64,000 bases of DNA, taken from the NCBI RefSeq assembly GCF_004570385.1, contig NZ_SPQL01000014.1, forward strand, positions 1 to 64,000. The letters are read 5' to 3'. The notes below the pieces were generated by a model. It was not told the DNA's origin. It made no database searches and saw only the letters and a list, made by a program, of their open reading frames with translations. Source of the DNA: Blastococcus sp. CT_GayMR19 (lineage in GTDB: Bacteria; Actinomycetota; Actinomycetes; Mycobacteriales; Geodermatophilaceae). This document shows, in pieces, positions 13,487 to 61,460 of this stretch (position 1 is its first letter; the number at the start of each line of letters is the position of its first letter). Position numbers and translations under genes: made by a program.

Positions 13487-13538
13487 GCTTTCGGTACCGA
13501 AAGCGCGGGGCCCCTGCGCAGCTTTCGGTACCGAAAGC
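13487..13538. repeat. twin palindrome, GGTACC core (copy 1)
   Basis: Two identical 18-bp perfect palindromes, GCTTTCGGTACCGAAAGC, occupy 13487-13504 and 13521-13538. Their centres are 34 bp apart. Both are extended by flanking complementary bases (CCCC/GGGG around the first; GGCCCCTG/CAGGGGCC around the second). They lie between convergent genes (HDOD and acyl-CoA dehydrogenase), so a bidirectional terminator role fits here. The same 18-mer pair recurs at 53262-53313 in a different setting. Confidence 0.85.
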
Positions 13539-45379: not shown

Positions 45380-46600
<1,221 letters not shown>

Positions 46601-46607
46601 CGGACAC

Positions 46608-46660
46608 GCTGCCGGTACCGGATGCGCGCCGTTCCCGCGCCGCTTCCGGTACCGGAAGCG
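46608..46660. repeat. twin palindrome, GGTACC core (copy 2, partly degenerate)
   Basis: GCTTCCGGTACCGGAAGC is a perfect 18-bp palindrome at 46642-46659. An imperfect partner with the same CCGGTACCGG core lies at 46608-46625. Their centres are 34 bp apart, as at 13487 and 53262. It sits between the convergent hppD and thioesterase genes. Downstream to 46732 there is further GC-rich inverted-repeat-like DNA without genes. Confidence 0.75.
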
Positions 46661-46732: not shown

Positions 46733-47143
46733 TCAGCCCTTCCGGCGGCGCGCGGTGGGGTCGAGGGCGCGGCCGAGGACGTCGCGGGCCAGGACGACCT
46801 GCACCGTGGAACCCCGCCCGACCTCGCGGCCGTCGCCGTCGGTCGCCGTGCACTCGCAGGTGAGGCGGTTCCCGTCCACCGCGACGCAGCGGGCTGCGAT
46901 CCGCAGCCGGTCACCGACCCAGCTCGGCGCCAGGTGCTCCACCGCCACCGACCGGCCCAGGCCCTCCTCGTCCGGCCCGAGATGGCGGAGCAGGAGCTTG
47001 CGGCCGGCCTCCTCGAAGTGCTTGGCCATGTTGTAGGTCGCGTACACCGGGTGCACCGGGCCGAGCTCCTCGAAGTGCACCGTGAGCTCCGGCGTCACGA
47101 CGACGTCGAGCACCGCCGACTCGCCCAGCGGGACGGGCCGCAC
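46733..47143 (-). CDS. hotdog-fold thioesterase (PaaI/FlK-like) of the paa cluster
   Basis: A 136-aa single hotdog domain: ELTVHFEELGPVHPVYATYNMAKHFEEAGRKLL (helix part: YNMAKHFEEAG), then SVAVEHLAPSWVGDRLRI and EVGRGSTVQVVLARDVL. The sequence resembles fluoroacetyl-CoA-thioesterase-like (FlK) and other acyl-CoA thioesterases. It lies 25 bp after paaE in the same direction, so it may release CoA from stalled phenylacetyl-CoA intermediates, as PaaI does. GTG 47143. Substrate is inferred from position only. Confidence 0.8.
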   Translation of the reverse strand: MRPVPLGESAVLDVVVTPELTVHFEELGPVHPVYATYNMAKHFEEAGRKLLLRHLGPDEEGLGRSVAVEHLAPSWVGDRLRIAARCVAVDGNRLTCECTATDGDGREVGRGSTVQVVLARDVLGRALDPTARRRKG

Positions 47144-47168: not shown

Positions 47169-48263
47169 TCAGGCGTCGAAGTCGACGGTGACCGCGTCGG
47201 TGACCGGCAGCGTCTGGCAGGTCAGCACGTAGCCCGCCTCGACCTCCTTGGCCTCCAGCGCGTAGTTGCGCCGCATGACCACCTCGCCGTCGGTGACCCG
47301 TGCCCGGCAGGTGCCGCACACCCCGCCCTTGCAGGCGAAGGGCAGGTCGCCGCGCACCTTCTGGGCCGAGTCGAGGACGGACTCGTCGCGGGGGAGGGCC
47401 AGGGTCGTCGTGCGCCCGTCAAGGATGACCGTCACCTGGCTGCTCGGCCCGGTGACCGTCTCCTCGTCCCCGCGCACCGGCTCCGGGGGGATCTCGTCGA
47501 CGTAGAAGAGCTCCTGGTGCACCTTCTCCTGCGGGACGCCGAGCTCGGCGAGCAGCGCGCGGGCGTCGTCGACCATCCCGTGCGGACCGCACAGCCACCA
47601 GTGGTCGACGTTCGGGGCGTCCACCAGGTTCTCGACGAGCGCGCGCAGCCGGGCCTCGTCGAGCCGGCCGCTGGTCAGCTCGGCGTCGCGCGGCTCCCGG
47701 GAGAGCACGTGCACCAGCTGCAGCCGGGTGCCGTAGCGGTCCTTCAGGTCGGCCAGCTCGTCGGCGAACATCACCGTGTTGGTGCGCCGGTTGCCGTAGA
47801 AGACCGTGACGGTCGAGATCCCGTCCCGCAGCACCGAGCCGGCCAGCGACAGCACCGGCGTGATGCCCGACCCGGCGACGACGAAGACGTGGTCACCGGG
47901 CACGGACAGGTCGGCGGTGAACGTGCCCGACGGCGGCAGCACCTCGATCGTGTCGCCCGGCTGCACCTGGTGCACCAGGTAGGAGGAGAAGAAGCCGCCG
48001 GGCACCTCTCGGACGCCGACCCGCGGCTGCGCGCCCATCGGCGCGCAGATCGAGTACGACCGGCGCTCGTCGCGGTCGCCGTCGACCCGGCGGAGGGTGA
48101 GCGCCTGGCCCGGCTTGAACCGGTAGTCCTCGGCCAGCTCGGCGGGGATGTCGAAGGTGACCGCGACGGCGTCGTCGGTCAGCTTCTCGACCTTCGCGAC
48201 GGTCAGGGGATGGAACTGCGGGCGGCGGCGGGCGCTCACGGGGGCGTCGGTCGTCGTCGTCAT
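47169..48263 (-). CDS. paaE: ring-1,2-epoxyphenylacetyl-CoA epoxidase reductase
   Basis: A 364-aa reductase. An FAD-binding ferredoxin-reductase domain (FKPGQALTLRRVDGDRDERRSYSI seen as RRSYSICAP; FVVAGSGITPVLSLAGSVL for NAD binding) precedes a C-terminal 2Fe-2S ferredoxin: FACKGGVCGTCRARVTDG gives three of the four Cys, and VLTCQTLPV the fourth. It passes NADPH electrons to PaaA. ATG 48263 has AAGGAG 6 nt upstream and overlaps the paaD stop (TGATG). This gene is sometimes called paaK in other naming. Confidence 0.95.
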   Translation of the reverse strand: MTTTTDAPVSARRRPQFHPLTVAKVEKLTDDAVAVTFDIPAELAEDYRFKPGQALTLRRVDGDRDERRSYSICAPMGAQPRVGVREVPGGFFSSYLVHQVQPGDTIEVLPPSGTFTADLSVPGDHVFVVAGSGITPVLSLAGSVLRDGISTVTVFYGNRRTNTVMFADELADLKDRYGTRLQLVHVLSREPRDAELTSGRLDEARLRALVENLVDAPNVDHWWLCGPHGMVDDARALLAELGVPQEKVHQELFYVDEIPPEPVRGDEETVTGPSSQVTVILDGRTTTLALPRDESVLDSAQKVRGDLPFACKGGVCGTCRARVTDGEVVMRRNYALEAKEVEAGYVLTCQTLPVTDAVTVDFDA

Positions 48264-48805
48264 CAGATCTCCTTGACGTGCTCGAAGGGCTCGCGGCAGC
48301 TGAGGCAGCGGCGCAGGGCCTTGCAGGCGGTGGCGCCGAACTCCGAGAGCTCCTCGGTGTCGGCCGAGCCGCAGAGCGGGCAGGACGCCGTCCGGCGGGT
48401 GGGGCCGAGCTGCAGGGGGATCGGGCCGTCGGTGCGGACCGGCGCCTTGCCGGGCGGCGCGATGCCGCCGGCTGCCAGCGTGCGGCGGCCTTCGTCGCTG
48501 ATCCAGTCGGTGCTCCAGGCGGGCGAGAGCACGGTGCGGACCTCGACGTCGCCGAAGCCGGCCCGGTGCAGGGCGTGCACGAGGTCCGCCCGCATGACGC
48601 CCATGGCCGGGCACCCGGTGTAGGTCGGCGTGATCTCGACGACCACGGTGCCGTCGGCGTCGATTCGCACCGCCCGCAGCACGCCGAGGTCGGCGAGGGT
48701 CACCATCGGCAGCTCGGGGTCGGTGACCCGGGCGGCCACCTCCCAGGCCTCCGAGGGGCCACCCGCGTGCTCGTGGCCCTGAGCGGTCTGCGTCATGGCG
48801 GTCAC
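48263..48805 (-). CDS. paaD: phenylacetate-CoA oxygenase assembly protein PaaD
   Basis: About 180 aa, related to the MIP18/SufT (DUF59) family: VTDPELPMVTLADLGVLRAV, VVEITPTYTGCPAMGVMRAD and a C-terminal zinc ribbon CPLCGSADTEELSEFG plus CLSCREPFEHVKEI. It probably helps maturation of the metal centres of the Paa oxygenase. GTG 48805 overlaps the paaC stop (GTGA); ATG 48796, three codons later, is an alternative. Its stop overlaps the paaE start. Confidence 0.93.
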   Translation of the reverse strand: MTAMTQTAQGHEHAGGPSEAWEVAARVTDPELPMVTLADLGVLRAVRIDADGTVVVEITPTYTGCPAMGVMRADLVHALHRAGFGDVEVRTVLSPAWSTDWISDEGRRTLAAGGIAPPGKAPVRTDGPIPLQLGPTRRTASCPLCGSADTEELSEFGATACKALRRCLSCREPFEHVKEI

Positions 48806-49713
48806 CAGGTGGCCGCCGGGTGCTGACGGGCCAGGCCCTGCAGCGCGCCGAGCAGCTCGGCGACCTCCGGGCCGTGCTCGCCGAGGCGGCCGCGCGGGGG
48901 AGCCTCGGCCGGCCACTCCGGCAACCGCAGGGTGGCCCGCTCGAGCACCTCGGTCAGCACCGACCGCACCTCCTCGCGGGTGGACGACGGGTCGACGGCG
49001 ACGCCGGCCGCGGTCAGCCGCCGCTCGAGGTCCGTGGCGGAGAAGACGTCGGCCAGCAGCGGCCACACGGCGTCGACCCCGTCCTGTGCACGCCGGTGGG
49101 ACTCCGCGGTGCCGTCGCCGAGGCGGAGCAGCCACCGGGCGGCGTGGTCGCGGTGGTAGGCCAGCTCGTGCACGCCCTTGGCGGCGATCGCGGCGAGCAC
49201 CGGGTCGCGGGACTCGCGCAGCCGCGCGAAGACGGCCAGCCGGACGGTGGCGGCGACCAGCAGGCGGACGATCGTCTGCGCGAAGTCGCCGTTGGGCGCC
49301 GCCACCAGGGCGGTGTTGCGGAACTCGTCGGCGTCGCGGAAGTAGGCCAGGGCGTCCTCGTCGGGGATCGACCCGGTGGCCAGCTCCCGGGACCGCCCCA
49401 GCACGCCGACCGAGCCGGCGCGGGCCAGCAGCAGCCGCGCCTGGCCGAGCAGGTCGAGCGCGACGTTGGCGACCGCCACCTCCTCCTCCAGCTCCGGTGA
49501 GGCGGTGATCCACTCGGTCAGCCGCTGCGCGAGGACGAGCGCGTCGTCGCCGAGCATGAGGCAGTACTCGCCGAGCTCCGCCGGGTCGACGCCGTCGGGA
49601 ACGGTGGTGTCCACGCCGGCCAGCGGCTCGTCGAAGCCGGTGCCGAAGGCCCAGTGGCCCTCGCCGCCGTGGGCGTGGTCGAGCGCCTCGTAGACGGTTT
49701 CCTCGTGCGCCAT
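48802..49713 (-). CDS. paaC: phenylacetate-CoA oxygenase subunit PaaC
   Basis: A 303-aa ferritin-like subunit. YCLMLGDDALVLAQRLTEWI, ELEEEVAVANVALDLLGQAR and GVHELAYHRDHAARWLLRLGDG are typical. PaaC pairs with PaaA as the structural, inactive partner of the di-iron subunit. ATG 49713 has GGAAGG about 8 nt upstream. It is 41 bp after paaB; its stop overlaps the paaD start. Confidence 0.95.
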   Translation of the reverse strand: MAHEETVYEALDHAHGGEGHWAFGTGFDEPLAGVDTTVPDGVDPAELGEYCLMLGDDALVLAQRLTEWITASPELEEEVAVANVALDLLGQARLLLARAGSVGVLGRSRELATGSIPDEDALAYFRDADEFRNTALVAAPNGDFAQTIVRLLVAATVRLAVFARLRESRDPVLAAIAAKGVHELAYHRDHAARWLLRLGDGTAESHRRAQDGVDAVWPLLADVFSATDLERRLTAAGVAVDPSSTREEVRSVLTEVLERATLRLPEWPAEAPPRGRLGEHGPEVAELLGALQGLARQHPAATW

Positions 49714-49754
49714 GCCGTGCCTTCCACTGGTGGGGTGTGGTCTCGGGGTGCCGC

Positions 49755-50117
49755 TCACATGTGCGGCACGTTCTCCGGGATCTCGTAGAACGTGGGGTGC
49801 CGGTAGACCTTGTCGCCGCTGGGGGCGAACATCGGGTCCTTCTCGTCGGGGCTGGACGCGGTGATGTCGGCGGCCTTCACCACCCAGATGCTCACGCCCT
49901 CGTTGCGACGGGTGAAGAGATCGCGGGCGGCGTGGACGGCCATCTCGTCGTCCGGCGCGTGCAGCGACCCGACGTGCACGTGGTTCAGGCCGCGCTTGCC
50001 GCGGACGAAGCACTCGTAGAGCGGCCAGTCCCGGCGCGCGGTCGCCGCCTTCGGCTCGACCGGCACCTCCGGCCCGGTGGGGACGGCGCCGTGCCCACCC
50101 TCGGAAGTCATGCTCAT
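49755..50117 (-). CDS. paaB: phenylacetate-CoA oxygenase subunit PaaB
   Basis: A 120-aa small subunit: [30 protein letters not shown] and [20 protein letters not shown] are the PaaB signature (each visible as [14 protein letters not shown] and [13 protein letters not shown]). It bridges PaaAC heterodimers. ATG 50117 overlaps the paaA stop (ATGA). Length is slightly longer than the E. coli protein because of an N-terminal, Pro/Glu-rich extension. Confidence 0.95.
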
Positions 50118-51079
50118 GCCGCCGCCTCCTGCTTCGCTGCGTAGGCGGTCGCCGCCTCGAGCACCCAGGCGTTGTCATCGCGGGCGGCGCGGCGGCGGGC
50201 GATCCGCTCGGCGTTGGCCGGGCCGTGGCCGCTGATCACCTGCTTGAACTCCTCCCAGTCGATGGCGCCGAACCGGTAGTGGCCCGTCTCGGCGTCGTAG
50301 GAGAGCTCCGGGTCGGGGAACGTGACGCCGAGGGCCTCGGCCTGCGGCACCGACATGTCGACGTAGCGCTGGCGCAGCTCGTCGTTGCTGTGCCGCTTGA
50401 TGCCCCACGCCATCGACTGGGCGCTGTTGGGGCTGTCGTCGTCCGGCGGACCGAACATCATCAGCGACGGCCACCACCACCGGTCGACGGCGTCCTGCAC
50501 CATCGCCCGCTGCTCGGGGGTGCCGCTCATCATCGTGAGCAGCAGCTCGTAGCCCTGCCTCTGGTGGAAGGACTCCTCCTTGCAGACCCGGATCATCGCC
50601 CGGGCGTACGGGCCGTAGGAGCTGCGGCACAGCGGCACCTGGTTGCAGATCGCGGCGCCGTCCACCAGCCAGCCGATGACGCCGACGTCGGCGTAGGTGA
50701 GCGTCGGGTAGTTGAAGATCGAGCTGTACTTCTGCTTGCCCTCGATCAGCTTGTCGGTGAGGTCGGCCCGGTCGGCACCGAGGGTCTCCGCCGCGGAGTA
50801 CAGGTACATGCCGTGGCCGGCCTCGTCCTGGACCTTGGCGAGCAGGATCGCCTTGCGGCGCAGGCTGGGGGCGGCGAGCAGCCAGTCGCCCTCCGGCTGC
50901 ATGCCGATGATCTCGGAGTGCGCGTGCTGGGCGATCTGCCGGACCAGCGTCTTCCGGTACCCCTCGGGCATCCAGTCGCGCGGCTCGATCCGGTGTCCGG
51001 CGGCGATGGTCGCGTCGAACAGGGCCTGCAGGGCCGCCTCGTCGGGAGGGGTCGGACGGTCGAGCGTGGACGAGGACAT
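50114..51079 (-). CDS. paaA: phenylacetate-CoA oxygenase catalytic subunit PaaA
   Basis: A 321-aa di-iron oxygenase subunit: [37 protein letters not shown] (E-x-x-H ligands), [16 protein letters not shown] (E-E-x-x-H), and [21 protein letters not shown]. It epoxidises the ring of phenylacetyl-CoA with O2. ATG 51079 has AGGGA about 8 nt upstream; an earlier in-frame ATG at 51103 is less likely. First gene of paaABCDE-thioesterase, divergent from paaK across two PaaR-type operators. Confidence 0.96.
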
Positions 51080-51112
51080 GTCGTTCCCTCGGGTCGGCGG
51101 CACATGGCGGTC

Positions 51113-51137
51113 AATAACTGACCGATCGGTCGGTAAT
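51113..51137. promoter_or_regulatory. candidate PaaR operator 1 (paaA side)
   Basis: AACTGACCGATCGGTCGGTA around 51116-51135 contains the perfect palindrome GACCGATCGGTC (51120-51131), with the outer arms ACT/GGT. It lies about 34-58 bp upstream of the paaA start, where a TetR-type repressor would block transcription. The same pattern (ACTGACC-N4-GGTCGGT) recurs at 51219-51236. Confidence 0.7.
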
Positions 51138-51214
51138 GAGTGTGCACCAGTTCCGGCCGCTCCACAACCCCGGATCCGAGCGGTGCCACTTGACAGATCC
51201 GGCGCCGGGGAGTT

Positions 51215-51240
51215 GGTTACTGACCATCCGGTCGGTTATT
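51215..51240. promoter_or_regulatory. candidate PaaR operator 2 (paaK side)
   Basis: ACTGACCATCCGGTCGGT at 51219-51236 follows the same ACTGACC-N4-GGTCGGT pattern as operator 1, flanked by T/A-rich ends. Its centre is 102 bp from that of operator 1, close to a whole number of helical turns. It is about 64-89 bp upstream of the paaK start. Bound repressors could meet and loop the divergent promoters. Confidence 0.7.
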
Positions 51241-51303
51241 GGGCGCCTCGCGGTCTCGACGCCGGCCCCGGGCGACGCGCGGACCTCCGAAGGGCGATGG
51301 ACC

Positions 51304-52644
51304 ATGACTGCAGCTGCCAGTGAGACGACCCGGCGACTGGGGGCGGCCGCCGACCCGTCGCTGCTCGATCCGGCGGAGCGGATGGGCGCCGACGAGCTGC
51401 GCGGCGTGCAGCTCGAGCGTCTGCAGTGGTCGTTGCGGCACGCCTACGACAACGTCCCGCACTACCGGGCCGCCTTCGACGCCGCCGGGGTGCACCCCGA
51501 CGACTGCCGCGAGCTGGCCGACCTCGCCAAGTTCCCGACCACGAGCAAGCTGGACCTGCGGGACAACTACCCGTTCGGGATGTTCGCGGTCCCGCAGGAC
51601 CAGGTCCGGCGCATCCACGCCTCGTCCGGCACGACCGGCCGGCCGACCGTCGTCGGCTACACCGAGCGGGACATCGACACCTGGGCCGGCGTCATGGCCC
51701 GCTCCATCCGGGCGGCCGGCGGCCGGGCCGGCGACAAGCTGCACAACGCCTACGGGTACGGCCTGTTCACCGGCGGCCTCGGCGCCCACTACGGGGCGGA
51801 GAAGCTCGGCTGCACCGTCATCCCGATCTCCGGCGGCATGACGCCGCGCCAGGTCCAGCTGATCACCGACTTCGCGCCGCGGATCATCATGGTCACGCCG
51901 AGCTACATGCTCACCGTGATCGACGAGATGGAGAAGCAGGGCATCGACCCGCGCTCCACCTCGCTCGAGATCGGCATCTTCGGCGCCGAGCCGTGGACCG
52001 AGCAGATGCGCCAGGAGATGGAGGAGCGCCTCGACATCGAGGCGATCGACATCTACGGGCTGTCCGAGGTGATGGGTCCCGGCGTCGCCCAGGAGTGCGT
52101 GGAGACCAAGGACGGCCTGCACGTCTGGGAGGACCACTTCTACCCGGAGATCATCGACCCGGTCAGCGGCGAGGTGCTGCCCGAGGGGGAGAAGGGCGAG
52201 CTGGTCTTCACGTCGCTGACCAAGGAGGCCATGCCGGTCATCCGGTACCGGACCCGCGACCTGACCCGGCTGCTCCCCGGCACCGCGCGCCCCGGGATGC
52301 GACGGATGGAGAAGGTCACCGGCCGCACCGACGACATGATCATCCTGCGCGGGGTGAACGTCTTCCCGACGCAGATCGAGGAGATCGTGCTCCGCACGCC
52401 GGGACTCTCGCCGCACTTCGCGCTGGAGCTGACCACCCGCGGCCGGATGGACCACCTCACCGTCCAGATCGAGGCCCGGCCGGACTGTCCGTCGGACCGC
52501 CGGGACGGCGCGGCGCGCGAGGTGCAGAAGGCGGTCAAGGACACGGTCGGGACCAGTGTCGACGTGGTCGTCGTCGACCCGGAGACGCTTGCCCGCTCGG
52601 TGGGCAAGCTGCAGCGCCTGCATGACTTGCGGAAGCGCTCGTGA
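51304..52644 (+). CDS. paaK: phenylacetate-CoA ligase
   Basis: A 446-aa adenylate-forming ligase. LQWSLRHAYDNVPHYRAAFD, IHASSGTTGRPTVVGYTERD (ATP loop), GYGLFTGGLGAHYGAEKLG, DIYGLSEVMGPGVAQEC and GRTDDMIILRGVNVFPTQIEE are PaaK signatures. It converts phenylacetate, ATP and CoA into phenylacetyl-CoA. ATG 51304 has AAGGGCGATGG upstream. Next to its end the TetR gene starts with a 4-bp overlap. Confidence 0.96.
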   Translation: MTAAASETTRRLGAAADPSLLDPAERMGADELRGVQLERLQWSLRHAYDNVPHYRAAFDAAGVHPDDCRELADLAKFPTTSKLDLRDNYPFGMFAVPQDQVRRIHASSGTTGRPTVVGYTERDIDTWAGVMARSIRAAGGRAGDKLHNAYGYGLFTGGLGAHYGAEKLGCTVIPISGGMTPRQVQLITDFAPRIIMVTPSYMLTVIDEMEKQGIDPRSTSLEIGIFGAEPWTEQMRQEMEERLDIEAIDIYGLSEVMGPGVAQECVETKDGLHVWEDHFYPEIIDPVSGEVLPEGEKGELVFTSLTKEAMPVIRYRTRDLTRLLPGTARPGMRRMEKVTGRTDDMIILRGVNVFPTQIEEIVLRTPGLSPHFALELTTRGRMDHLTVQIEARPDCPSDRRDGAAREVQKAVKDTVGTSVDVVVVDPETLARSVGKLQRLHDLRKRS

Positions 52645-53252
52645 CCTTGCCCCCGGCCGCGCCGCCGCGCCGCGGGCGGCCCGGCCACTCGCTGGACTCG
52701 CTGCTCGACATCGCCGTCGAGGCGTTCATCGAGCGCGGCTACGAGGCGACCAGCATGGACGAGCTGGCCGCCCGCCTCGGCATCACCAAGTCGGCCATCT
52801 ACCACCACGTCTCCAGCAAGGTCGAGCTGCTCCGGCTCGCGCTCGACCGGGCGCTCGACGCCCTGTTCGCGGTCACGGAGGAGCCGGGTGCCACCACCGG
52901 CCCGGCCATCGACCGGCTCGAGCACGTGGTGCGGGGGTCGGTGCGGGTCCTCATCGACGAGCTGCCCTTCGTCACCCTGCTGCTGCGGGTGCGGGGCAAC
53001 TCCGACGTCGAGCGCGACGCGCTGCAGCGGCGCCGGACGTTCGACCGCCTCGTGACGGAGCTGGTCCGTGCCGCCGAGGTCGAGGGGGACGTCCGCCCCG
53101 ACGTCGATCCCGCGGTCACCAGCCGGCTGCTGTTCGGCACCGTCAACTCGCTGACCGAGTGGTACCGCCCCGAGCGCGGCCTGAGCGCCGACGACCTGGC
53201 CGACGCCCTCGTGACCGTCACCTTCTCCGGCCTCCGCGCCACCCCTGCCTGA
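52641..53252 (+). CDS. paaR: TetR family regulator of the paa genes
   Basis: A 203-aa TetR protein: RGRPGHSLDSLLDIAVEAF, IERGYEATSMDELAARLGITKSAIYHHVSSKVELL (helix-turn-helix: ELAARLGITKSAIYHHV), then a helical C-terminal domain. GTG 52641 overlaps the paaK stop (GTGA). It is the likely repressor binding the paired ACTGACC-N4-GGTCGGT operators and released by phenylacetyl-CoA, as known for PaaR proteins; in this organism that is inference. Confidence 0.92.
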   Translation: MTLPPAAPPRRGRPGHSLDSLLDIAVEAFIERGYEATSMDELAARLGITKSAIYHHVSSKVELLRLALDRALDALFAVTEEPGATTGPAIDRLEHVVRGSVRVLIDELPFVTLLLRVRGNSDVERDALQRRRTFDRLVTELVRAAEVEGDVRPDVDPAVTSRLLFGTVNSLTEWYRPERGLSADDLADALVTVTFSGLRATPA

Positions 53253-53259
53253 CACCCGC

Positions 53260-53316
53260 GAGCTTTCGGTACCGAAAGCTCGACCCGAGTCCCGCGCTTT
53301 CGGTACCGAAAGCGCG
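53260..53316. repeat. twin palindrome, GGTACC core (copy 3), before paaZ
   Basis: GCTTTCGGTACCGAAAGC occurs at 53262-53279 and 53296-53313, identical to both units at 13487-13538. The right one extends to a perfect 24-bp palindrome (53293-53316). Centres are 34 bp apart. The right palindrome ends 13 nt before the paaZ ATG and abuts its ribosome site GGAAGGAG (53316-53323). There is no room for a promoter between it and paaZ, so here it cannot be just a terminator. Confidence 0.85.
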
Positions 53317-53329
53317 GAAGGAGCCTTCG

Positions 53330-55387
<2,058 letters not shown>

Positions 55388-55452
55388 GCGTTCCACCGGG
55401 GCCCGACCGGCCGCTTCCGGCGGCCCGGGTCCGGTCCGTATCCTCGGCCGGC

Positions 55453-56619
55453 ATGCGCCCGGCCGTGGTGGACTCCGGCCGCGGCTGGGTCATGGTCACC
55501 GCGGCGTTCGCGGCGATGTTCACCGCCTTCGGGATCGCCTACTCCTTCGGCGCGTTCCTCGAGCCGATGGCCGAGGAGTTCGGCTCCGGCCGCGGGGCCA
55601 CCTCGGTCTTCTTCGCCCTCACGTCGCTGAGCTACTTCGGGTTCGGCGCCCTGAGCGGCGTCGCGGTGGACCGCTACGGCCCCCGGCGGGTGCTCCTGGT
55701 CGGCGGGATCGCCCTCGGCGCCGGCCTGGCCGCGACGTCGCAGGTCGGCGCGCTGTGGATCGGCCTGCTCACCTACGGACTCGGGGTAGGTATCGGGGTC
55801 GCCTGTGCCTACGTCCCGATGGTGGCGGTCGTGGGCGGGTGGTTCGAGCGACGGCGCACCCTGGCGATCGGGGTGGCGGTCACCGGCATCGGGCTGGGCA
55901 CCTTCGCCGTCGCGCCGCTGGCCGCCGCGCTGATCGACGAGAACGGGTGGCGGGACACCCACCTCGTCCTCGGCCTGGCCGGAGGCGCCGTCCTCCTCGT
56001 CTGTGCCGCGGTGGTCGCGCCGCCGCCGGTGCAGACCGGGCCGGCCGCTCTGACCCTGGGCGAGGCGGTGCGCAACCGCGACTACCGCCGGCTGTACCTC
56101 GCCATGGGCCTCATGGGCGTCGCGATGTTCGTCCCGTTCGTGCACCTGCCGGGATATGCGCAGCGTGCCGGGGTCGACGAGGTCGCGGCGGCCGCTCTGG
56201 TCGGGGTGATCGGCGCGGCGAGCGTCGTCGGTCGGCTGGTGCTCGGGGCGGTCGCGGCGCGGACCGGCCCGACCCGCGCTCTGCAGGGGTGCTTCCTCGC
56301 CATGGGTGCGAGCTTCGCGCTGTGGGGCATCGGCGGCGGCTACGGCGTGCTGCTCGCCTTCGCCGTCGTGCTGGGGGTCGGCTACGGCGGATTCGTCGCC
56401 CTCGGTCCCGCGGTCGTCGCCGAACGGTTCGGCACGACGCGGCTCGGTGGGCTCCTGGGGGTGCTCTACACCAGCGTCGGCATCGGCTCGGCGTTCGGCG
56501 CACCGCTGGCGGGCGTGACGATCGACGCCTCGGGCTCCTACGGGCCCGCCATCGCCGGATGCCTCGTGCTCGGGCTCGCCGCGTACCTGACCGTGCTGGG
56601 TGTCGGCCGTCGCGCCTGA
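55453..56619 (+). CDS. MFS transporter (monocarboxylate-type)
   Basis: A 388-aa major facilitator with about 12 membrane segments: GIAYSFGAFLEPMAEEFG, YFGFGALSGVAVDRYGPRRVLLVGG (the GxxxDRYGxR loop 2-3 motif: GVAVDRYGPRR), GWFERRRTLAIGVAVTGIGLG (a second loop motif), and YGGFVALGPAVVAERFG. This resembles MCT/oxalate-formate antiporters. It follows paaZ by 65 bp in the same direction and may take up phenylacetate or another aromatic acid; the substrate is inference. ATG 55453. Confidence 0.88.
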   Translation: MRPAVVDSGRGWVMVTAAFAAMFTAFGIAYSFGAFLEPMAEEFGSGRGATSVFFALTSLSYFGFGALSGVAVDRYGPRRVLLVGGIALGAGLAATSQVGALWIGLLTYGLGVGIGVACAYVPMVAVVGGWFERRRTLAIGVAVTGIGLGTFAVAPLAAALIDENGWRDTHLVLGLAGGAVLLVCAAVVAPPPVQTGPAALTLGEAVRNRDYRRLYLAMGLMGVAMFVPFVHLPGYAQRAGVDEVAAAALVGVIGAASVVGRLVLGAVAARTGPTRALQGCFLAMGASFALWGIGGGYGVLLAFAVVLGVGYGGFVALGPAVVAERFGTTRLGGLLGVLYTSVGIGSAFGAPLAGVTIDASGSYGPAIAGCLVLGLAAYLTVLGVGRRA

Positions 56620-56655: not shown

Positions 56656-58005
56656 CTACTCGCCGGCGACCCAGCGGATCGGCAGCCGCTTCACGCCGCG
56701 CTGGAAGTTGGAGCGCAGCAGCGCCGGGGGGCCGTCGAACCCGACGACGGCCGTCCGGCGGAGCAGCTCGCCGAACAGCGCGCGCATCTGCACGCGGGCG
56801 AGCTGTGCGCCCAGGCAGAAGTGCGGACCGTGGCCGAAGCTCAGGTGCGGGTTGGGTGCGCGTCGGACGTCGAAGCGGTCCGGGTCGTCGAACACCCCCT
56901 CGTCGCGGTTGGCCGACGTGAACGACACGACCACCTTGTCCCCGGCGCGCATCCGGACGCCGTCGAGCTCGGCGTCGGTGGTGGCGGTGCGCCGGAAGAC
57001 CATCACCGGCGTCCACCAGCGCAGCATCTCCTCGACGGCGCCCGGCAGCAGCGACGGGTCGGCGCGCAGGGCGCCCAGCTGCTCCGGGTGCTGCAGGAGC
57101 GCGATCAGCCCGCCGGGCAGCCCGTTGCGCAGGGTCTCGTTCCCGGCGACGGCGAACAGCCAGAACATGTTCTCGAACTCGGCGTCGCTGACCCGGCCGG
57201 CGGAGCCGCCCCGCCCGCCGTCCCCGTCCTCCTGGGCCAGGAGGATCGACATCACGTCGTCGCCCGGTGCGCGCCGCTTCTCCTCGGCCAGCAGCCGGGC
57301 GTAGGCGTAGAGGTCGGGCATGCCGGCCCGCGTGCGCGGGTCGGGCATCCGGCCGTCGGCGCCGGGGGAAGGTCTGAGGGCCAGCGCCTCGCGGGCCATC
57401 GCCGTCCCGGTGGTCCCGTCGAACGCGGCCGACGACGCGTAGTCGGGGTCCTGCCAGCCGATCACGCGGTTGGACCAGTCGAACATCAGCCAGCGGTCCT
57501 CGGGCGGCACGCCGAGGACGTCGGCGAGACTGATCAGCGGCAGCTCGGCGGCGACGTCCTTGGCGAAGTCGCAGCGGCCCTCCTCGGCGCCGTCGATCAT
57601 CCGGTCGACCAGCCGTGCCGCGGTCGCCTCGATGCCGGCGGTGAGCTCGGCCACGGCGCGCGGGGTGAACGAGCGGGACAGCAGCCGCCGGAGCCGGGAG
57701 TGGTCCGGCGGGTCCATGTTCAGCATCATCCGGCGCACCCACGCGAGGTCGGCCGCGTCCCGGACCTGGGTGGCACCCAGCCAGGAGGAGAACGTCGCCG
57801 GGTCGCGCAGCACGCGCTCGACCTCGGCGTGCCGGAGGACCAGCCAGAAACCCGGACCCGCGGCCTGGTCGTGCAGGGCCGGCTCGTCCACCCACGTCAC
57901 CGCCCCCGCGGACCGCAGCCGGCGCAGCGCCTCGAGCGGCGGGCCCTGCTGGTAGGTCGCCGGGTCGACGACGGCGCGGACGTCCGGGGCATCGACGTCG
58001 GACAT
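56656..58005 (-). CDS. cytochrome P450
   Basis: A 449-aa soluble P450. I-helix oxygen motif FAVAGNETLRNGLPGG (A-G-N-E-T), K-helix EEMLRW (E-x-x-R), and heme loop LSFGHGPHFCLGAQLARVQM with the Cys ligand are intact; the N-terminus shows LRRLRSAGAVTWVD and MDPPDHSRLRRLLSRSFTP. The pattern is near bacterial CYP families for terpenoid/steroid hydroxylation. No ferredoxin or reductase gene is adjacent. It is divergent from an ABM/unknown/amidohydrolase operon with 99 bp between starts, so a shared pathway is likely. Confidence 0.95.
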   Translation of the reverse strand: MSDVDAPDVRAVVDPATYQQGPPLEALRRLRSAGAVTWVDEPALHDQAAGPGFWLVLRHAEVERVLRDPATFSSWLGATQVRDAADLAWVRRMMLNMDPPDHSRLRRLLSRSFTPRAVAELTAGIEATAARLVDRMIDGAEEGRCDFAKDVAAELPLISLADVLGVPPEDRWLMFDWSNRVIGWQDPDYASSAAFDGTTGTAMAREALALRPSPGADGRMPDPRTRAGMPDLYAYARLLAEEKRRAPGDDVMSILLAQEDGDGGRGGSAGRVSDAEFENMFWLFAVAGNETLRNGLPGGLIALLQHPEQLGALRADPSLLPGAVEEMLRWWTPVMVFRRTATTDAELDGVRMRAGDKVVVSFTSANRDEGVFDDPDRFDVRRAPNPHLSFGHGPHFCLGAQLARVQMRALFGELLRRTAVVGFDGPPALLRSNFQRGVKRLPIRWVAGE

Positions 58006-58104
58006 GGCGGACCAGCTCCCGATGGGTCGTCGACCTGCGCCTGCGCGGTGGCGCTCCTACCGTATGGGCCACGGTGCACCCGGCGTCCGACCCAGGAGCG
58101 CGAC

Positions 58105-58440
58105 ATGGCCGTCTTCCGCATCCTCGAGGCGAAGGCACGTCCGGGCGGGATCGACCGTCTCGCCGAGCTCCTCGTCACGCAGAACGACCGGGTGGTCGCG
58201 TCCGCGCCCGGGGCCCTGTTCGCCCAGGCGCTGCGCAGCGGCGACCAGGTGCTCGCGGTGTCGAGCTGGGAGAGCACCGAGGCCATGCAGGGCTACCTCG
58301 ACCTGGACGCCACCCGCGAGTTCTACCGGGCGCTGCCGGAGCTGCTCATGGGCATGCCGACCATCCGCACCTACGAGGTGATCGCCCCGGACGGCGGCGG
58401 GGACGGTTGGCAGACCGCCGGACAGGGTGGGCGGCCATGA
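58105..58440 (+). CDS. ABM-domain (antibiotic biosynthesis monooxygenase-like) protein
   Basis: A 111-aa single ABM ferredoxin-like fold: MAVFRILEAKARPGGIDRLAELL, LFAQALRSGDQVLAVSSWESTEAMQGYL, and REFYRALPELLMGMP. ATG 58105 has GGAG about 6 nt upstream. ABM proteins act as cofactor-free oxygenases, heme-degraders or dimerising partners. The next gene overlaps it by 4 bp, so this is the first gene of a four-gene unit divergent from the P450 gene. Confidence 0.82.
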   Translation: MAVFRILEAKARPGGIDRLAELLVTQNDRVVASAPGALFAQALRSGDQVLAVSSWESTEAMQGYLDLDATREFYRALPELLMGMPTIRTYEVIAPDGGGDGWQTAGQGGRP

Positions 58441-59111
58441 CCTGGTACTACCCGAAGGGCTGGACCGACCAGGAGGACGGCGTCGAGCAGGTCGTGATCC
58501 ACTACGTCTGCACGCCGCCGGAGCAGTGGCCGGACTGGTCGTGGGGGCACGAGTCCCGGGTGCTCGAGGACCGCGGCGGCTTCCCGCGGAACCGGCTGAA
58601 GGTGCTGCGCATGCCGCGCGACGTCTGGGACATCCAGCACGGCCGGTCGACTCCCGAGTACCGCTTCCACTACTACTTCGAGGTCTTCCAGAACGGCCAC
58701 CGCTGGACGACGGACCGGTTCACCGAGGACATCGTGTACCGCGACCTCGAGTACGTCGACGACCACGGCTGGACGACCAACATCTGCATCTACTGGTCCG
58801 TGGGTGACTGGTCGGCCCCGGTCTACAGCCCGATGGAGGACCCCCGCTTCCCGGTCGACTCCGAGTTCCGGGCCACGAAGTACTACTCGTACCAGGACAA
58901 GGAGCGTTTCCACCACGACAAGTTCTGGATGCTGCAGTCGATGGAGCGGCCGCACCGGTGGCGGTCGCGCATGTACGGGCCGCGCGGGACCACGCTGGTC
59001 CAGCAGTACCACGTCGGGCGGATGTACCCGCCGGAGGAGAAGGACGAGTTCTGGCTGGGCCCCGACGGCCGGTCCGCCCCCGGCGGCAACTACTGGGTCC
59101 ACGCCCTCTAG
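58437..59111 (+). CDS. unknown protein, paralogue A of a tandem pair
   Basis: A 224-aa, Trp/Tyr/His-rich protein with no recognised family. Motifs shared with the next gene are: IHYVCTPPEQWPDW (HY-x-x-T-x-P...PDW), a Y-x-F-H-Y-Y-F strand, FTEDIVYRDLEYVDD followed by GWTTNICIYWSVGD, and YGPRG near the end followed by QYHVGRM. Many alternating aromatic residues suggest a beta-sandwich. No signal peptide or membrane span. ATG 58437 overlaps the ABM gene stop. It is likely a small-molecule-binding or subunit protein of the P450 pathway; this is inference. Confidence 0.8.
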   Translation: MTWYYPKGWTDQEDGVEQVVIHYVCTPPEQWPDWSWGHESRVLEDRGGFPRNRLKVLRMPRDVWDIQHGRSTPEYRFHYYFEVFQNGHRWTTDRFTEDIVYRDLEYVDDHGWTTNICIYWSVGDWSAPVYSPMEDPRFPVDSEFRATKYYSYQDKERFHHDKFWMLQSMERPHRWRSRMYGPRGTTLVQQYHVGRMYPPEEKDEFWLGPDGRSAPGGNYWVHAL

Positions 59112-59160
59112 CGCCCAGCCCAGTGCCCGAGTCGTCGTCCCGTCCGATCGCGAGGTGCCC

Positions 59161-59829
59161 GTGAGTGAACTGACCGCGGCCGTCAGGGCCGAGACCGAGC
59201 AGCTGTTCGGCCTGCGCCGGACGTGGGTGGACACCGTGCCGGGGATCGAGATGGTGCAGGTCCACTACGCCTGGACGGCGCCGGGACGGGAGCCGGACTG
59301 GGAGGCCGCCGACACGCGCGTGCTCACCCCCAGCGAGGACTCGCCCGGCCTGCGGACCGCGGTCATCGAGGTGCCGAGGCAGGTCGACGGGAGCCGCGAG
59401 TACCTGCTGCACCACTTCTTCTTCCTCGTCACCGGGGACGAGTCGAGCACCTCGCCGGTGCTCACCGAGGAGATCGTCGCCCGCGAGATCACCTACACCG
59501 ACGACACCGGGGCGTGGACCCACGTGGGCATCGGCTGGGGCGTCTCACCGGGCCTGCCCGACCTCGCGGCGCCGAACTACACCGCGGCCGCCATGGAGGG
59601 GCTCTCCTTCGAGGACGCCGGGGCGGGGGCGCCGGCCGAGCCCGCGCCGATCCACGAGTTCGTGCGGGCCCAGCCGCTCCCGCACGTCTTCCACGGCCTC
59701 GTGTGGGGTCCGCGCGGCTTCGACCTGGGCTACGTGTTCCACCTGGTGCGGGCCGGCGGCCCGCGACCCGAGGACGACACGGAGGTGTGGGAGGACAACG
59801 GCGGGAGCGGGTGGACCATCAGGCTGTGA
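59161..59829 (+). CDS. unknown protein, paralogue B of a tandem pair
   Basis: A 222-aa acidic protein that aligns along its length with the preceding gene: VHYAWTAPGREPDWEA, EYLLHHFFFLVTG, LTEEIVAREITYTDD followed by GAWTHVGIGWG, and VWGPRGFDLGYVFHLVR. Identity is modest but the order of motifs is the same, so the two look like an old tandem duplication and may form a heterodimer. GTG 59161 (GAGG 5 nt upstream). It overlaps the fused amidohydrolase gene by 4 bp (GTGA). Confidence 0.8.
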   Translation: MSELTAAVRAETEQLFGLRRTWVDTVPGIEMVQVHYAWTAPGREPDWEAADTRVLTPSEDSPGLRTAVIEVPRQVDGSREYLLHHFFFLVTGDESSTSPVLTEEIVAREITYTDDTGAWTHVGIGWGVSPGLPDLAAPNYTAAAMEGLSFEDAGAGAPAEPAPIHEFVRAQPLPHVFHGLVWGPRGFDLGYVFHLVRAGGPRPEDDTEVWEDNGGSGWTIRL

Positions 59830-61460
59830 CCGCCCCGGACCCCCGTCTCCCGCTGGAGTGGATCTCGCCGGCCGGGGATCGCACGCCGGGCGGCCGGGTC
59901 CGCTACCGCGGCTCCCTCGCGGCGTCCGACCGCCCGCTGCACCTGCACCTCGGCTTCGACGGCTCGCCGCCACCGTTCCGGGACGTGGTCCTGGAACGGG
60001 AGGACGACGGTAGCTGGACCGCGGAGATCCCCGACACCGACGGGCACGTCCTCCTCGACTGCGCCGTCTCCGCGTCGCCCGACTACTGGGACAACAACGC
60101 CGGCGCCAACTACCGGCTGTGGGTCGGCCTGGACCCGGTCGACGCGCACGTCCACGCGCGCAGTCCCGGCCTCGACCCGATGGGCCTCGACAGCCTGCGG
60201 ATCGCCCTCGCCTCCGGCGGCATGACCCACGGGCTGGTGTCGTGGCAGGACAACGACTTCGTCGACCGGGCGACGCGCGGACTTCCCTGGCTGACCCGGC
60301 TGGTGTGGGTGAGCCCCGGCGGCCCGGGAGTCGACGACGTCCGCCGGCGGCTGACCGGTGGCGCGGTCGGGCTGAAGCTGCACCCCTCCTACGACGAGTA
60401 CCCGGCGGACGCGCCCGGCCTGGACCCCTTCCTGGAGGTCGCGGCCGAGGCGGGGGTCCCCGTCGCGGTGCACACTGCTCCCGGTCCCTCCGATCCCGAC
60501 CTCATCCGCAGGCTGGCCGACCGGTTCCCGCAGGTGCCGTTCGTGCTCTACCACACGTTCCTCGGCCATCCGGAGGGTCGCCGCCGGGCCGCCCGGCACG
60601 CCCAGGAGATGCCGAACCTGCACCTCGAGACCTCCTGGTGCCGCTCGGAGGAGGTGCGGCGGCTGATCGACGAGGTCGGGGCCGGCCGGGTGCTGTTCGG
60701 ATCCGACGCCGCCGTGGACGGGCCGGTGCACTTCGTCCGCTCGCCGCCCAACATCGAGATGACGGAGAACTACAACCAGAGCCTGCTGCGCCTGGCCCGG
60801 CAGCTGCCGGCGGAGACCCTCCGGGCCCTGCTCGAGGACAACACGAGGCGACTCTTCGGCCTGGCGGCGCCCGAGCGGCCGGAGCAGGCCCCCGAGGACG
60901 TCCGGGCGCTGTTCGCCGACGCGCTCGCGATGGCCGGGTCCGTCATCGCGGCGGTGGGGCCGGGCGACCTCGAGCGGCCGACGGCCTGCGCCGGCTGGGA
61001 CGTGCGCGACGTGCTCGGGCATCTCGTGGCCACCGTCCGGCAGGCGGAGCAGGTGGCCCGGGGAGCGGGGCCGCCGAGGGCCGGCGTGGCACGCCTCGAG
61101 CGGCGGGACCGGTGGGGACCGACCTTCGACGCGGCCGCGCGCAAGGCGAGGCTCGCGTGGGCCGACGGGGCCCCCGTGCCGGCCGACGTCCGGGTGCCCT
61201 GGGGGCTCGTGCCGGCACCGGTCGCCCTGGCCGGCTTCGTCCTCGAGCTGGTCGCGCACACGCACGACGTCGCCGGGAGCATCGGCCGCACGGAGCTGCT
61301 CGACGACCGGCTCGGGACCGCGGCCCTCGGGATCGCCGAGCGGTTCCTGCCCGCCGCCCTCCGGAGCGACGGGGCGGCGTTCGCCGGGCCGGTGCAGGTT
61401 CCGCCGACCGCCGGCGTCTACGCGCGGCTCGCCGCGTTCCTCGGCCGCGCGCAGCGCTGA
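59826..61460 (+). CDS. amidohydrolase fused to N-terminal beta-domain and C-terminal MDMPI domain
   Basis: A 544-aa three-part protein from GTG 59826. Residues about 1-100 look like a CBM25-type/E-set beta-domain (LHLHLGFDGSPPPFRDVVL, YWDNNAGANYRLWV). Residues 104-350 are amidohydrolase 2: DAHVHARSPG (HxH at 108-110), GLKLHPSYDEYPA, VAVHTAPGPSDPD, VLFGSDAAVDGP. Residues about 357-540 are an MDMPI_N-type four-helix domain: RPTACAGWDVRDVLGHLVAT and VLELVAHTHDVAGSIG. The first supplies binding, the second metal-dependent hydrolysis or decarboxylation, the third possibly a thiol-dependent step. I know of no characterised protein of this build. Confidence 0.82.
   Translation: MTAPDPRLPLEWISPAGDRTPGGRVRYRGSLAASDRPLHLHLGFDGSPPPFRDVVLEREDDGSWTAEIPDTDGHVLLDCAVSASPDYWDNNAGANYRLWVGLDPVDAHVHARSPGLDPMGLDSLRIALASGGMTHGLVSWQDNDFVDRATRGLPWLTRLVWVSPGGPGVDDVRRRLTGGAVGLKLHPSYDEYPADAPGLDPFLEVAAEAGVPVAVHTAPGPSDPDLIRRLADRFPQVPFVLYHTFLGHPEGRRRAARHAQEMPNLHLETSWCRSEEVRRLIDEVGAGRVLFGSDAAVDGPVHFVRSPPNIEMTENYNQSLLRLARQLPAETLRALLEDNTRRLFGLAAPERPEQAPEDVRALFADALAMAGSVIAAVGPGDLERPTACAGWDVRDVLGHLVATVRQAEQVARGAGPPRAGVARLERRDRWGPTFDAAARKARLAWADGAPVPADVRVPWGLVPAPVALAGFVLELVAHTHDVAGSIGRTELLDDRLGTAALGIAERFLPAALRSDGAAFAGPVQVPPTAGVYARLAAFLGRAQR

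Follow-up and report, generated by a model that had tools for sequence, protein, structure and literature searches.

The DNA analyzed here, called the window, is a 64,000-nucleotide stretch of Blastococcus sp. CT_GayMR19 (contig NZ_SPQL01000014.1, positions 1 to 64,000; total genome size, 4.57 Mb). Toward its end lies a run of four (+) strand genes, ABM-U1-U2-AH, hereafter the cassette, which encode an ABM-fold small protein, two proteins of unassigned family and an amidohydrolase; a P450 gene is divergent from them. An earlier note, made from the sequence alone, had proposed that all five genes form a single catabolic set in a pathway that it could not name. The five open reading frames (ORFs) are all present at the coordinates it gave, and the spacing agrees: a 99-bp gap separates P450 from ABM, ABM and U1 overlap by 4 bp, U1 and U2 are 49 bp apart, and U2 and AH overlap by 4 bp.

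56656..58005, (-) strand: P450 (CYP125/124-like), divergent neighbor outside the conserved unit; 0/15 other loci carry a homologue of it in the flanks examined
58035..58104, (+) strand: putative promoter upstream of ABM, containing a TACnGT core
58105..58440, (+) strand: ABM-fold small protein, cassette gene 1; Pfam ABM match, E 2.3e-6
58437..59111, (+) strand: U1, 224 aa, beta-rich and rich in Trp/Tyr/His; orphan family
59161..59829, (+) strand: U2, paralogue of U1 (29% identity), 222 aa, GTG start
59826..61460, (+) strand: AH, amidohydrolase; CBM53-like region ~1-103, Amidohydro_2 barrel ~104-346, MDMPI/TIGR03086 ~365-541

Sixteen loci were compared: the window, 12 from a scan of a species-genome collection with two short U1 peptide patterns, which divergent members may escape, and three new ones (L092-L094). 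The 12 pattern-scan loci belong to two Geodermatophilus genomes (G. tzadiensis, L044, and Geodermatophilus sp. LHW52908, L046), one Modestobacter metagenome-assembled genome (MAG; L045), one Jatrophihabitans MAG (L047), seven Actinoplanes/Paractinoplanes genomes (among them Paractinoplanes pyxinae, L052) and Nucisporomicrobium flavum. The three new loci were found among the 67 genomes in the genus group of G668, called Actinoplanes-type here, which includes 11 carriers. The complete cassette occurs in the same order in 15/16 loci, including the window; U1 and AH are kept in all 15 other loci, and ABM and U2 in 14 of them. The ratio of nonsynonymous to synonymous substitution rates (dN/dS) was 0.14-0.40 for the four cassette genes (NG86, five pairs computed; the AH value for L052 versus L048 covers 264 codons only). 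The gene calls are not chance ORFs because they are conserved across loci and show these dN/dS values.

The conserved unit is the four-gene cassette, and it is present in a few soil actinobacteria. Neither a single-sequence search of 396 genomes of the phylum nor a profile search of 394 genomes of the class found U1/U2 relatives beyond the genome of the window itself. Within the order, U1/U2 were present in 4/200 genomes, this one included, and they were not found in the plasmids or phages searched. U1/U2 are absent from 56/67 genomes of the Actinoplanes group, and full-length AH is absent from 108/112 genomes of a second group.

The P450 gene is an unrelated neighbor and was excluded from the unit. 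No P450 homologue was matched at E ≤ 1e-5 in the flanks of the 12 named loci, nor at E ≤ 1e-8 with at least 33% identity in the flanks of all 15 other loci, with approximately 4.5-10 kb examined on each side. The window P450 (Pfam match, 6e-27) has as its nearest solved relatives CYP125/CYP124 proteins, which are named as steroid C26- and branched-lipid hydroxylases. The idea of a conserved, catabolism-linked set holds for the four (+) strand genes and not for P450. The earlier note had also accepted that its set would fall if the genes were not neighbors in related genomes, and this is what was found for P450 (0/15), whereas ABM-U1-U2-AH stayed together in 15/16 loci.

The cassette is tied to paaK and other genes of phenylacetate (PAA) catabolism, and the pathway that had been left unnamed can be named in part through this linkage to paaK, paaABCDE and paaZ. 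In the window, a paa cluster (paaABCDE-paaK-tetR-paaZ, with paaA-E divergent from paaK) occupies 47169-55387 and adjoins the five-gene stretch; it was missing from the earlier note.

46733-47143, (-) strand: FlK-type thioesterase gene directly beside paaE
47169..51103, (-) strand: paaE-D-C-B-A, phenylacetyl-CoA epoxidase genes; TIGR02156-TIGR02160 above cut-offs, and synteny
51118-51134 and 51220-51236 (span 51118..51236): pair of palindromes resembling PaaR operators, in the paaA-paaK interval
51304..52644, (+) strand: paaK, phenylacetate-CoA ligase; TIGR02155 1e-216, above cut-off; PDB 2y4o, 9e-194; start picked by comparison with L044
52641-53252: TetR gene between paaK and paaZ
53330..55387, (+) strand: paaZ, ring-opening bifunctional protein; TIGR02278, 4e-302
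55384-56619: major facilitator superfamily (MFS) transporter gene between paaZ and P450

The structure matched by the window paaK product, 2y4o, is a Burkholderia-type phenylacetate-CoA ligase.

The cassette lies within 10 kb of paa genes in 15/16 loci, the exception being L046, and paaK is next to it in 12/16. In the Actinoplanes-type loci, paaK always lies immediately upstream of the cassette (11/11); in the 10 loci that have ABM, the distance between paaK and ABM varies between an overlap of 1 bp and a gap of 17 bp. The arrangement differs elsewhere: paaK is the next gene downstream of AH in L047; paaE begins approximately 20 bp after AH in L045, where the contig ends within paaA; thioesterase and enoyl-CoA hydratase genes, paaE-A and paaK come after the cassette in L044; and paaE-A and paaK are near the cassette in the window. 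Linkage within 10 kb in 15/16 loci compares with approximately 0.6% expected per genome, and counting the arrangements as 5/6 linked gives approximately 4e-11, a rough estimate based on a hand-compiled linkage table. Besides the paa genes, no neighbor cluster is common to more than 3/13 loci. Among the 67 Actinoplanes-type genomes, 41 have paaK and 11 have the cassette, and all 11 carriers have paaK (Fisher p 0.0025, uncorrected for descent). The paaK of the cassette is the sole copy above the family cut-off in seven of these carriers; the others (G670, G675, G1020 and G1042) have a second copy, which is near paaA in three of them. In all 11, paaA is on another contig or more than 1 Mb from the cassette.

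Comparison of paaK sequences bears on the history of the cassette. The paaK genes of Actinoplanes-type cassettes are 78-84% identical to window paaK, and those of 20 fetched cassette-less relatives are 65-71% identical to it. Trees were made from the best tblastn match per locus with alignments of more than 380 columns, duplicate genes being removed, and they hold part of the paaK matches (up to 30 loci per search). The cassette-type paaK lineage grouped with Geodermatophilaceae and separately from the paaK genes of relatives that lack the cassette; within the Geodermatophilaceae, the paaK genes of carriers form no clade. Transfer of paaK and cassette from a Geodermatophilaceae-like donor was suggested by the tree but is not claimed here because a single clade for all Actinoplanes-type paaK was not rejected (approximately unbiased test, p 0.51). 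The distances of paaK, U1 and AH correlate over 11 loci (Mantel r 0.83-0.87, with 0.87 for paaK-U1), and r is 0.73-0.75 within the eight Actinoplanes-type loci of that set.

One genome, G1048, is cassette-less yet has a paaK of the cassette type (81% identity to window paaK), which falls inside the cassette-type lineage in the tree. The flanks of its locus, L155, are colinear with those of L052 on either side and, where shared, 85-88% identical to them in DNA sequence; behind paaK there are only short pieces of the U1 start and the AH end. We read this as loss of the cassette with retention of paaK; the cassette is therefore accessory and losable.

The AH protein matches Amidohydro_2 (PF04909) in Pfam at 3.6e-28, and its C terminus matches MDMPI_N (8e-8) and TIGR03086 (1e-34; 119.6 bits against a cut-off of 83). 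The earlier note had called AH a three-domain protein; the third part, the N terminus, is CBM53-like at the family level only, with CBM53 matches at E ≤ 1 in 8/13 members (best 3.1e-8) and no CBM53 entry for the window copy. Amidohydro_2 is found in 13/13 aligned AH proteins and MDMPI_N in six; the MDMPI domain is dispensable and not core, since it is absent from 7/13. In Paractinoplanes pyxinae (L052, 11304-12590), a long Ser/Ala/Gly/Pro stretch of low complexity is inserted in the N-terminal part of AH. Residues D106, H108, H110, K184, H186, H216, H243 and D294 are invariant in 13/13; by its profile match and its invariant HxH, K, H, H, D set of predicted metal ligands, AH belongs to the amidohydrolase superfamily. 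The K184-H186...H216 stretch aligns with the 'GLKIHE' stretch of urease alpha, and hydrolysis is favored because of this alignment; the carbamylated lysine of urease bridges two metals, and we take the strand-4 lysine (K184) to favor a hydrolase over an ACMSD-type decarboxylase. The ABM protein matches PF03992 at 2.3e-6 (28.1 bits against a gathering score of 23.1). The 'monooxygenase' in the ABM name is inherited, and many family members are not oxygenases; EthD and ABM proteins share a fold.

The U1 and U2 proteins share 29% identity (E 1.5e-16) and are paralogues, as had been said from the sequence; neither has a significant match in Pfam or NCBIfam. Among 26 U1/U2 members compared with Pfam, the best E value was 0.018, in one member, and comparison with the PDB gave 0 sequence matches at E ≤ 10. 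Judged by sequence, U1/U2 are an orphan family present as two paralogues. The predicted U1 model (predicted local distance difference test score, pLDDT, 92.5) consists largely of beta structure, plus a single long helix (152-168). Foldseek aligned it weakly with cyclodextrin glucanotransferase (CGTase) and Fn3/Ig-type receptor domains (query template modelling (TM) score 0.19-0.29 among the 50 matches listed), which may be taken as a fold hint only, and a viral-protein fold library gave no useful match. Homology of U1/U2 to the CBM53-like N terminus of AH was also considered, and no relation was found in a profile comparison of low power with few diverse sequences. Aromatic residues plus His make up 23% of U1, and H22, H78, E97, H173 and H192 are among the residues invariant in 26/26 U1/U2 sequences. 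An ambitious and improbable reading is that U1/U2 are a new enzyme family, in which a beta-sandwich heterodimer would bind metal through its invariant residues and attack an aromatic conjugate; the product would pass to the carbohydrate-module AH, and a new class of natural aryl conjugates would thereby enter phenylacetate catabolism.

Upstream of ABM, a TACnGT core is common to 5/5 aligned loci. A PaaR-like pattern was built from the sites at 51118 and 51220, which match it exactly by construction. In the window, no PaaR-like operator with two or fewer mismatches was found near the cassette; the nearest matches have three mismatches, which is at chance level. The absence of such an operator fits control of the cassette by its own substrate.

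The window has several other features of note. Its FlK-type thioesterase gene beside paaE has a homologue near paaE in L044 as well, and dead-end CoA esters arising in the PAA pathway are possible substrates of the enzyme. A 4-hydroxyphenylpyruvate dioxygenase gene (45395-46600, (+) strand) adjoins the paa cluster. The perfect palindrome GCTTTCGGTACCGAAAGC is paired, with 34-bp spacing, at 13487-13538 and 53262-53313, 40 kb apart, and a third site at 46642-46659 holds a single copy with two changes; 0 such sites are expected by chance in the window. The palindrome resembles an intergenic, dispersed repeat element.

We propose, with about even confidence, that ABM-U1-U2-AH is an accessory and likely peripheral module of PAA catabolism in which AH frees an arylacetate for PaaK. 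AH, as a metal-dependent amidohydrolase, would cleave an arylacetyl conjugate (an amide, ester or lactone), which the beta-rich U1/U2 pair and the ABM protein would bind or prepare; PaaK would activate the freed arylacetate, and PaaABCDE and PaaZ would burn the product. We infer the hydrolytic chemistry, the roles of U1, U2 and ABM, and the direction toward PaaK, the last because 11 loci have the cassette joined to paaK and separate from paaABCDE and because there is no PaaR-type operator at the window cassette. That the substrate is a sugar conjugate is a guess, made because the AH N terminus is CBM53-like.

Several points weigh against this proposal. The Actinoplanes-type loci share descent and are not 11 independent cases, L045 and L047 come from MAGs, and in L046 the cassette and paaA/paaK are on one contig but approximately 117 kb apart. 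Co-occurrence of the cassette with the PAA pathway is uninformative because paaA is near-universal in both groups (67/67 Actinoplanes-group genomes; above cut-off in 96/112 of the second group). ABM and U2 are not always needed, since L094 keeps U1 and AH without them, in the order paaK-U1-AH. The predicted AH model is moderate (pLDDT 76, predicted TM score 0.58), and its Foldseek neighbors include the LigW, IDCase and ACMSD decarboxylases, the LigJ hydratase, and the LigY and PDC hydrolases. These neighbors, C-C hydrolases among them, make decarboxylation or C-C hydrolysis possible alternatives to the hydrolysis proposed for AH.

The cassette might instead act inside or after the PAA route, clearing or repairing dead-end products (the oxepin-CoA shunt, lactones) and sparing the CoA pool, like PaaY elsewhere. 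The pathway is known to need control over its dead-end products (PMC7497051), and an EthD-family small protein occurs in an Exiguobacterium paa cluster (PMC9416434). The position of the cassette against paaE in L045 and the FlK-type thioesterase, enoyl-CoA hydratase and paaE-A genes that follow it in L044 would also suit such a role. We nevertheless consider it unlikely: in the 11 Actinoplanes-type loci the cassette adjoins paaK and paaA is more than 1 Mb off or on a different contig, and most genomes, nearly all of which have paaA, do without the cassette (56/67 without U1/U2; 108/112 without full-length AH).

Also rather improbable is a biosynthetic branch, in which the cassette would tailor phenylacetyl-CoA supplied by PaaK, or a seven-ring shunt product of the pathway, to a secondary metabolite. 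In its favor, antibiotic clusters often contain ABM proteins and Actinoplanes are prolific producers, but beyond the paa genes no neighbor cluster recurs in more than 3/13 loci, and 19 sampled neighbor proteins (Pfam) include no synthase. Tropones do derive from the PAA route according to PMC7497051, but the tropolone set given there (TrlA, TrlF, TrlE, TrlCD) shares none of the four cassette proteins, as compared by name only. That the neighborhood is accidental and the four genes are unrelated to phenylacetate would be consistent with the unlinked cassette of L046 and with the paaK that survives alone in G1048; it is decidedly improbable given that several different arrangements touch paa genes, in 15/16 loci. 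The 99-bp divergent arrangement in the window is what speaks for all five genes, P450 included, being one catabolic set, and with no P450 homologue in the flanks of 15/15 other loci we regard such a set as highly improbable.

The proposed PaaK-feeding module can be compared with several known systems. It lies in or beside the PAA catabolon (PaaK, PaaABCDE, PaaZ, PaaR), and paaK is first in the Actinoplanes-type gene run, but its four proteins match no known Paa protein family. AH shares a predicted barrel and metal-ligand set with amidohydrolase family 2 (PF04909: LigW, LigY, LigJ, ACMSD, PDC hydrolase) but is fused to a CBM53-like N terminus and, in some members, to MDMPI, has the strand-4 lysine, and has only a weak best PDB profile match (LigY, 6e-5). 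Upper routes into phenylacetate start from styrene, phenylethylamine and others; the cassette would likewise deliver phenylacetate to PaaK but has no flavin styrene oxygenase, isomerase, amine oxidase or aldehyde dehydrogenase. The family-level match of the AH N terminus and the weak Foldseek alignment of U1 point tentatively to CBM53/CGTase-like beta-sandwich domains, whereas the TM scores of U1 among the matches listed are low and U1/U2 are unrelated to the AH N terminus in the low-power profile comparison. No description of the cassette was found in a search of mostly open papers on phenylacetate/paaK and on CBM53-amidohydrolases. A 2026 survey of 6,536 genomes treats PAA gene contexts by known Paa architectures (PMC13186573); its main text, as available, has 0 occurrences of 'amidohydrolase' and of 'hypothetical' and one mention of Actinoplanes.

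As a hub, phenylacetate is central to the breakdown of aromatic compounds, and the description of its upper routes is still growing. The cassette is an undescribed module with an orphan family, tied to the entry enzyme of this hub in several arrangements, and a natural cassette-less genome (G1048) beside a related carrier makes the question of its role directly testable.

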